Origin: a bacterium
GTDB lineage: Bacteria > SM23-31 > JAUVVT01
DNA: 7,879 bases
Direction: 5' to 3'
Assembly: GCA_030616165.1 (NCBI GenBank)
Contig: JAUWXV010000175.1
Location: 1 to 7,879, forward strand
Below, piece by piece: positions 4,281 to 7,879 of the stretch. The translations under genes and the position numbers were made by a program. Position 1 is the stretch's first letter, and each line of letters begins with the position of its first letter. A model generated the notes under the pieces. It ran no database searches, was not told where the DNA came from, and was given only the letters and a program-made list of their open reading frames with translations.

Positions 4281-4374
4281 CTTTTTATAAAAAATTGTGT
4301 AAATACTGCAATTTTAATTTTATACAAAATGTATTTTAAAAAAAATATTCTTATTAAATTTTATTTTTTATAGC

Positions 4375-4402
4375 TCTCTGTTGGTGTTGTCACCAACAGA
4401 GA
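4375..4402. repeat. Hairpin A: 12-bp perfect stem, loop TTGT
   Basis: TCTCTGTTGGTG (4375-4386) pairs exactly with CACCAACAGAGA (4391-4402). It shares the GTTGGT / ACCAAC core with hairpin B three bases away, of which it is an inverted variant copy. It lies between the aconitase stop and the start of the 164-aa gene. Confidence 0.85.
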
Positions 4403-4405
4403 AAA

Positions 4406-4433
4406 TGTGTGTTGGTCACAAGACCAACACACA
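4406..4433. repeat. Hairpin B: 12-bp perfect stem, loop ACAA
   Basis: TGTGTGTTGGTC (4406-4417) pairs exactly with GACCAACACACA (4422-4433). Reverse-complemented, it is the same 28-nt sequence as hairpin A, including the loop TTGT, except for three base pairs that are flipped C-G to G-C. This is a REP/BIME-like facing pair. Confidence 0.85.
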
Positions 4434-4467
4434 GCATCAATTCATACGTGACATGACACTGGTTCAA

Positions 4468-4497
4468 ATTATCCCCTGACTGAAGTCAGGGGATAAT
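4468..4497. repeat. Hairpin C: 14-bp perfect palindrome, CCCCTGACT type, after aconitase
   Basis: ATTATCCCCTGACT (4468-4481) pairs exactly with AGTCAGGGGATAAT (4484-4497) around GA. It starts 13 bp past the aconitase stop codon and is well placed to end or protect that mRNA, but only TTTG follows on the minus strand, a poor U tract. The CCCCTGACT / AGTCAGGGG core recurs exactly at 6930-6949, so it is a dispersed repeat rather than a gene-specific terminator. Confidence 0.8.
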
Positions 4498-4510
4498 GAT
4501 TATTGAACTT

Positions 4511-6906: not shown

Positions 6907-6929
6907 TTAATAAGCCTATGGCTTATTAA
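6907..6929. repeat. Palindrome D: 10-bp perfect stem, loop TAT
   Basis: TTAATAAGCC (6907-6916) pairs with GGCTTATTAA (6920-6929). It directly abuts palindrome E and forms part of a run of three hairpins upstream of the 89-aa gene. Confidence 0.75.
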
Positions 6930-6949
6930 CCCCTGACTTTAGTCAGGGG
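6930..6949. repeat. Palindrome E: second copy of the CCCCTGACT / AGTCAGGGG hairpin
   Basis: CCCCTGACT (6930-6938) pairs with AGTCAGGGG (6941-6949) around TT. The two arms are identical to the core of the hairpin at 4468-4497; only the two central bases and the outer arms differ. This shows a dispersed repeat within the window. Confidence 0.8.
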
Positions 6950-6972
6950 GTAGAAACATCGCCTTAAGTTTC

Positions 6973-7009: not shown

Positions 7010-7128
7010 TGCCCTTTGCGTCTGCGGTTAATCTTATAAATTCGTAAATCGTCATTCGTAAATCGTAAATCCCTTCTCTGTGCCCTCTGTGGTTCCATTT
7101 TTCATTCGTAAATCATAAATCATAAATC
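7010..7128. repeat. 7-bp tandem repeats (TAAATCG/TAAATCA) with TCTGYGGTT modules, running into the transketolase stop
   Basis: Read on the minus strand, 7128-7101 is GATTTAT, GATTTAT, GATTTAC, GAATGAA. The stretch 7070-7041 is GATTTAC, GATTTAC, GAATGAC, GATTTAC, then GAA. All units are 7 bp. Each block adjoins a similar module, TCTGTGGTT (7086-7094) or TCTGCGGTT (7021-7029), each preceded by related TGCC/TGCG sequence, so the whole looks like a two-copy composite repeat. The first unit supplies the last two codons and the TGA stop of the transketolase gene. No ORF or CRISPR-like architecture is present. Confidence 0.7.
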
Positions 7129-7879
7129 TTTTATTTCTTTTTTAATACTTTCGGTAGAAAGACCGAATTTTTGATACAATTCTTTCGAGTCTCCAGATTC
7201 TCCAAAATCACTGAGACCCAATCTTTTTACTTTTGTTGGTAATTTTTCACTCAACAGTTCACAAACAGCACCCCCAAGACCTCCATTAATTGTATGGTCC
7301 TCAACCGTTATTATTTTCCCTGTTTTTTCTGCACTTGATATTATCAATTCTTCATCAATTGGCCTTATAGTATGAATATTAATAACTTTTGCACTAATTC
7401 CCTCATTTTCAAGTTCGTTGGCTGCCGTTAATGAATTATACACCACTCCCCCAGAAGCGATTATTGTAATATCACTTCCTTCTTTTAAGACTACCCCTTT
7501 CCCGAAATTAAATTTATAATCTGAAGGATTAATATCTTCGAGTTTCTGACGAGTCAATCTGAAATAACAGGGACCGTCATATTCAACAATATATTGAACT
7601 GCTCTTTTAGCCTCGATGTCGTCAGCAGGTTGAATAATTGCAATATTAGGCAGAGACCTGATTAAAGAAACATCTTCAAGCGCCATCTGGCTGTATCCAT
7701 CTTCACCTATCCCCACACCTACGTGAGTCCCAACAATCTTCACATTTGCCCTGGTATAAGAGATTGACATCCGAATTTGTTCAAATCTATTGACTAAAAA
7801 ACAGGCAAAACTGCATATAAATGGAATCTTGCCGGAAAGAGCAAGACCTGCTCCTACCCCTACCATATTTCCTTCTGCT
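7120..7879 (-). CDS. Transketolase, C-terminal subunit (5' end outside the window)
   Basis: The reading frame is open to the window edge. The codons before the internal Met at 7864-7866 read A-E-G-N, giving AEGNMVGVGAGLAL, which corresponds to the family's AEQNMVGVAAGLA motif. The gene therefore starts beyond 7879, and its N-terminal 50-60 or so residues are missing. The Glu at 7873-7875 is the expected ThDP-activating glutamate. The pyrimidine-binding domain follows, with GTHVGVGIGEDGYSQMALED, then LPNIAIIQPADD and GPCYFRLTR. The C-terminal transketolase domain carries GSDITIIASGG, HTIRPIDEE, TVEDHTINGGLGGAV and GLSDFGESGD. It is half of a two-subunit transketolase (sugar-phosphate two-carbon transfer). 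The ThDP-diphosphate-binding half should lie upstream, outside the window. 1-deoxyxylulose-5-phosphate synthase is related, but these motifs fit transketolase family proteins better. Its last codons GAT-TTA-TGA coincide with a 7-bp repeat unit. Confidence 0.88.
   Translation of the reverse strand, partial: AEGNMVGVGAGLALSGKIPFICSFACFLVNRFEQIRMSISYTRANVKIVGTHVGVGIGEDGYSQMALEDVSLIRSLPNIAIIQPADDIEAKRAVQYIVEYDGPCYFRLTRQKLEDINPSDYKFNFGKGVVLKEGSDITIIASGGVVYNSLTAANELENEGISAKVINIHTIRPIDEELIISSAEKTGKIITVEDHTINGGLGGAVCELLSEKLPTKVKRLGLSDFGESGDSKELYQKFGLSTESIKKEIKDL

Follow-up and report, generated by a model that had tools for sequence, protein, structure and literature searches.

A REP doublet with a GCT foot and unequal ends, from a dispersed and probably mobile bacterial repeat family

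Two perfect hairpins face each other in an intergenic region of the window, i.e., the whole stretch of 7,879 nucleotides analysed here, and the sequence of one is converted into the reverse complement of the other by flipping three base pairs. What kind of element this pair is, and why its halves are unequal, are the questions that the locus raises. A preliminary description of the DNA had proposed selection on a folded structure, as in REPs (multi-copy, mostly extragenic palindromes) and BIMEs. Its geometry was correct to the base: hairpins A and B (Table 1) are both 28 nt long, with a perfect 12-bp stem and a 4-nt loop, and are separated by 3 nt. Re-comparison of A with the reverse complement of B likewise gave differences at positions 2, 4, 12, 17, 25 and 27, which form the three flipped pairs. 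The fold z-scores were -8.4 (+ strand) and -8.6 (- strand), values equalled by 0 of 200 shuffles, and the window contains two occurrences of the core GTTGGT-N6-ACCAAC, where 0.00 are expected. The pattern suggested earlier for searching the genome, with a spacing of N8-10, gave 0 matches and cannot match, because the true spacing is N6. The 12-bp stem holds in the window but not in the family as a whole, in which the stem comprises 11 bp after a GCT foot and the outermost T-A pair of the two hairpins is not general. The doublet thus reads 5'-GCT-(CTC TGTTGGTG TTGT CACCAACA GAG)-AAAAT- in its left half and, after AAAAT, (GTG TGTTGGTC ACAA GACCAACA CAC)-AGC-3' in its right half. Integron attC sites were set aside from the hairpin reading, the GTT/AAC arms being of opposite polarity.

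Table 1. Features of the doublet and its surroundings (window positions; C19 is the contig name used for covariance-model matches)
Feature	Position	Strand	Sequence or remark
Intergenic region holding the doublet	4281-4510		aconitase gene 3' end to start of 164-aa ORF
Hairpin A	4375-4402		TCTCTGTTGGTG/TTGT/CACCAACAGAGA
Hairpin B	4406-4433		TGTGTGTTGGTC/ACAA/GACCAACACACA
Left REP, C-type	4373-4401	+	covariance-model match C19:4369-4408 (+), 59.6 bits
Left REP, foot	4373-4375	+	GCT
Left REP, 5' arm	4376-4386	+	CTCTGTTGGTG
Left REP, loop	4387-4390	+	TTGT
Left REP, 3' arm	4391-4401	+	CACCAACAGAG
Spacer	4402-4406		AAAAT
Right REP, GTG-type	4407-4435	- (foot-first)	covariance-model match C19:4400-4439 (-), 53.6 bits
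Right REP, foot	4433-4435	-	GCT (mirror AGC on +)
Right REP, stem		-	GTGTGTTGGTC / GACCAACACAC
Right REP, loop		-	TTGT (ACAA on +)
Right flank	4436-4460	+	ATCAATTCATACGTGACATGACACT; shared with other copies; ends in terminal arm TGACATGACACT of a larger repeat

The doublet is one copy of a dispersed REP doublet, not a local duplication. With the 230-nt intergenic region as the query, BLAST found 42 matches in the own genome; of the other five genomes in the class, four also yielded many matches, so that the further copies for which the preliminary description had proposed to look are present. An alignment of 53 units of 40 nt served to build a covariance model, which was used for a census from which opposite-strand duplicates were removed: approximately 30 REPs were counted in the own genome (G000), 18 in G001, 22 in G004, 36 in G005, 2 in G002 and none in G003, i.e., the family occurs in five of the six genomes of the class, with 18-36 REPs in each of three related genera. 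The same model, under stricter filters, found no REP in 284 more distant genomes. Because the model was trained on members of four of the censused genomes, their re-finding is partly by construction, and the informative parts of the census are the copy numbers and the absence elsewhere. The counts are lower bounds because many copies, as repeats, sit at contig ends; the own-genome assembly has 343 contigs and is 90% complete. The sequence identity can extend beyond the hairpins: the right flank is identical in L009 and L010, with 80-nt matches at 99-100% on contigs C227 and C159, and 67 nt at C274. As in the definition of REPs, the copies are mostly extragenic, with 96 of 102 outside ORFs of at least 100 aa and 6 inside, while such ORFs cover 54% of the loci. 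Rfam gave no match at gathering thresholds, and no viral contig contained an exact match to the 27-nt core.

The position of the doublet, 3' of the aconitase gene and 5' of the 164-aa ORF (which, among 21 genomes, occurs in no other), allows for the reading that it terminates transcription of the aconitase gene or stabilises the 3' end of its mRNA and was selected in place, with its spread a side issue. Read on the - strand, TTTTC follows hairpin B, a terminator-like arrangement of which one was found, compared with 0.1 in shuffles, downstream of the aconitase gene. However, this T run derives from the spacer of the family, which is A-rich after the C-type REP in 17 of the 21 oriented doublets, and the dispersed copies adjoin unrelated genes, in either orientation. 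In four relatives (G001, G002, G004 and G005), no doublet lies 3' of the orthologous aconitase gene, and this speaks against a conserved role in regulation at that place; the regions compared have diverged too far to count as empty sites, and neither a clean empty site nor an excision was seen. Selection in place is hence rather unlikely, and the doublet may act as a terminator as a by-product.

A larger repeat was also considered as the moving unit. At L010:1785-1940 (G000:C159), a unit of approximately 155 nt encloses the doublet within 12-nt near-inverted ends, AGTGTTATGTCA and TGACATGACACT, of the pattern AGTGT.ATGTCA. One or both ends are common to L009, L017, L019 and L024, the last three sharing parts of the unit, and the window retains its right arm only. 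The REPs could therefore be cargo of a MITE moved by some other transposase, a reading that we regard as quite improbable: doublets without these ends occur in the own genome (L014, L016) and in G001, G004 and G005, and the part common to the whole family is the REP pair.

When the REPs of a doublet are read from the foot, each carries GCT 5' of the stem, and the loops of the family are TTGT, TTTT or TTAT (97 of 102 REPs). A and B are therefore the same REP facing outward, and it is for this reason that the earlier reverse-complement comparison gave a common loop. The GCT foot was found by exact position in 72 of 102 scored REPs; in the inspected TCCT/CCCT exceptions, GCT is present farther upstream, beyond an insert. 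In aligned intact copies, G5 and T7 of the foot are at least 90% conserved, and the base before the tag is A, T or C; the GCT foot is thus a conserved tag at one foot of the hairpin, as REPs have. An insert of 13-26 nt (CGTGCCCTTCGGG... or CCTGTCCTTCGGA) interrupts the 5' arm of one REP, leaving the foot and the remaining hairpin intact, in several doublets (left REP in L009-L013, L023, L025 and L026; right REP in L017-L019 and L022). Among close pairs, 18 of 19 have their feet outward, with centres 30-69 nt apart, so that the pairs are doublets of two close inverted REPs, as in BIMEs. The preliminary description had also noted that the two loops could kiss, an idea that was not supported. Such complementarity is automatic for inverted copies with one loop sequence, and some doublets carry two different loops (TTGT with TTTT, TTTT with TTAT).

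The two REPs of a doublet belong to different classes. When classified by the inner 3' arm, 22 of 22 non-redundant feet-outward doublets were heterodimers, 20 of them clearly a C-type with a GTG-type; this was reached in 0 of 100,000 permutations, a value that overstates independence because doublet copies are related. Classification by the outer 5' arm gave 19 of 22 (p 0.003); the 3' arm classes were preferred after this first result was known, because several left REPs carry the 5'-arm insert. The three flips in the window are the two end types of the family, not an isolated event. In the alignment of 53 REPs, 95.2% of stem cells are paired, compared with a shuffled mean of 80.8, and 67 cells are changed on both sides, compared with 23.0 +/- 3.1 in shuffles. 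No shuffle reaches the covariation score of this alignment; its count of doubly changed pairs, 5, is unremarkable in itself (110 of 500 shuffles). The stem varies at its three basal pairs and at the pair closest to the loop, the positions flagged in the preliminary description; the alignment was collected with an upper-stem pattern, so that conservation is inflated there, but not at the basal pairs. Covariation thus supports a hairpin stem that is conserved as a stem and, with it, the proposed selection on a folded structure; complementary mutations in REPs have been reported before (PMC2817692). An origin of the flips without selection, either through chance or through one template switch (hairpin copying) at this locus, was also considered. 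One such switch can replace both arms at once, and the reading is compatible with the window alone, but it is highly improbable given that all 22 doublets, drawn from four genera, show the same two end types and that pair changes are spread over the variable stem positions of 53 sequences.

The REP/BIME reading gains further support from RAYT (TnpA-REP) genes, a search for which had been suggested at the outset: one is flanked by these same REPs in each of two related genomes, G004 (L047) and G005 (L029), in the arrangement called a REPtron, with a C-type REP upstream and a GTG-type REP downstream. The G004 protein (185 aa) matches NCBIfam REP_Tyr_transpos (NF047646) at 85.8 bits (cut-off 80) and Pfam Y1_Tnp at 26.6 (cut-off 23), and the G005 protein (181 aa), 51% identical to it, matches NF047646 at 70.5 bits, below the cut-off. 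Both contain NHIH, YIHNNP and YSSASFY motifs and hence the NH[LIV]H, YIH[QN]NP and SS motifs of TnpA-REP subclass 2.6 (group 5), together with a length near its approximately 179 aa; the WQ motif of this subclass is replaced by WK in both (IWK, compared with IWQ in L159). A PDB sequence search with the RAYT gave no match. Among the RAYT loci examined in the own genome, none is cognate to these REPs; in this 343-contig, 90% complete assembly, a gene missing from the assembly cannot be told apart from a lost gene. The own genome holds many RAYT-like matches, including at least two RAYTs with other REPs. These matches include L079, L082, L084, L099, L100 and L104, and several are bordered by hairpin repeats of their own; for example, GTAG-CCGAGCCTG surrounds L079 and CGCCCTGGGT lies close to L082. 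As L029 and L047 looked cassette-like, the idea that small genes are carried as cargo between left and right ends was also considered; it was not supported, as close pairs are mostly doublets and the sole gene-length left-to-right pair found encloses the RAYT.

The nearest RAYTs outside the class are flanked by REPs with unrelated stems and the same GCT foot, in a comparison that was scored non-blind. The REPs of L160 read GCT-C-CTTGTGGATG-TTAT and GCT-CGCTGTGGATG-TTAT, and those of L161 read GCT-C-CCGGCGGATG-TTAT and GCT-CGTCGGGGAAG-TTGT; the foot is GCTTC in L159 and L176, and L177 has GCT on one side. Left and right REPs are unequal in L159, L160 and L161. At the more distant RAYTs examined, the foot is a different one, or the same scan detected no hairpin. 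In a RAYT tree, whose foot labels were set from the flanking hairpins of the closest relatives (L178 by kinship only), the GCT foot requires at least two changes and has one origin in 37% of bootstrap trees; GCT-foot RAYTs are clustered, and a single clade was not adopted. A more distant RAYT, L165 (G141), is flanked by unequal REPs whose foot, CTGA, resembles the CnGA given for class 3 in PMC6006769.

DNA folding suggests a reason for the unequal ends. As single-stranded DNA, the native window doublet is predicted to form two hairpins at -27.0 kcal/mol, compared with -12.4 when forced into one long hairpin, whereas a homodimer control, in which the right REP was replaced by a copy of the left, folds into the long hairpin at -38.3 kcal/mol. 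The unequal ends break left-right pairing while each hairpin remains perfect, so that two short hairpins would form instead of one long one. Most doublets behave like that of the window; long pairing is still favoured in 2 of 22 (L031 and the third doublet of L029), and several others are weakened by their outer-arm inserts. We infer, by analogy with known RAYT systems (PMC8266576, PMC3116915), that this BIME-type REP doublet is likely read by a RAYT and moved as a non-autonomous element. The RAYT, a single-strand HUH/Y1 nuclease acting on DNA in its single-stranded state, would most likely read three parts of each extruded hairpin (the GCT foot, the loop and the upper stem), cleave near the foot, and move the doublet as a unit, of which the ends, C-type at the left and GTG-type at the right, are unequal like the REPs bordering the RAYT gene. 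The repeat is hence probably mobile, and the base swaps, by keeping each hairpin perfect and breaking left-right pairing, may serve to maintain two short hairpins in single-stranded DNA.

The family belongs to the known REP/RAYT kind; its tag is neither GTAG (GT[AG]G) nor CGTC. Like REP/BIME elements and REPtrons (E. coli Y-Z; GTAG and CGTC superfamilies, PMC3733652), it shows extragenic palindromes with a foot tag, inverted doublets, dispersed copies, heterodimer preference and a RAYT flanked by cognate REPs; it differs in its GCT tag, its perfect 11-bp stem without a bulge, and the lack of any heterodimer exception in our sample, and its copies number tens, compared with hundreds in E. coli or Pseudomonas. 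The REPINs of Pseudomonas fluorescens SBW25 (PMC3116915) share the inverted doublet as the apparent replicating unit and the RAYT association, but are symmetrical and pair end-to-end as one long hairpin, whereas here the long pairing is broken. IS200/IS605 elements have in common with this system an HUH/Y1 enzyme, left and right ends that differ, and subterminal hairpins whose foot is preceded on the 5' side by a guide sequence, but here there is no sign of a gene and its ends moving as a unit, and the G004 protein, while over the REP_Tyr_transpos cut-off, scores far below the cut-off for IS200. In protein there is a likeness to subclass 2.6 (Bertels group 5), for which PMC6006769 lists 179 aa (181-185 aa here), the same NHIH, YIHNNP and SS motifs, and atypical REPs without GT[AG]G; WK stands here for WQ, and stems are perfect here, compared with the weaker secondary structures reported there. 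The main text of that paper gives neither a foot consensus nor GCT for subclass 2.6, and GCT would be a foot sequence for a RAYT type whose REPs were described only as atypical, common to lineages with otherwise unrelated stems. We tentatively propose that GCT REPs could be a third tagged group, with its own RAYT lineage and found in several unrelated bacterial lineages, in which fixed, unequal left and right ends serve to prevent the formation of one long hairpin. Heterodimer preference is already known, reportedly "has no obvious explanation", and was suggested to protect from nuclease clearance (PMC3733652); the proposal, if true, would supply a reason for it. The present family is an unusually clean case, with all doublets unequal, the same left/right order at the RAYT, and hairpins kept perfect by paired swaps.

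Several other repeats were seen. A second palindrome family, CCCCTGAC-TGAA/TTTA-GTCAGGGG, occupies 4468-4497 and 6925-6952 of the window and recurs elsewhere in the own genome, where G000:C163 holds a tandem run of it. At L012:1700-2000 (G000:C215), a doublet lies between two near-identical 60-nt copies, each with a GGTCAGACA hairpin repeat, as if one repeat had landed inside another. The window also contains, at 13-49, 2634-2795 and 7040-7139, a 17-bp hairpin (TATTCTTTATCCCTTGC), inverted CCCCCTT-rich arms and ATTCGTAAATC repeats.
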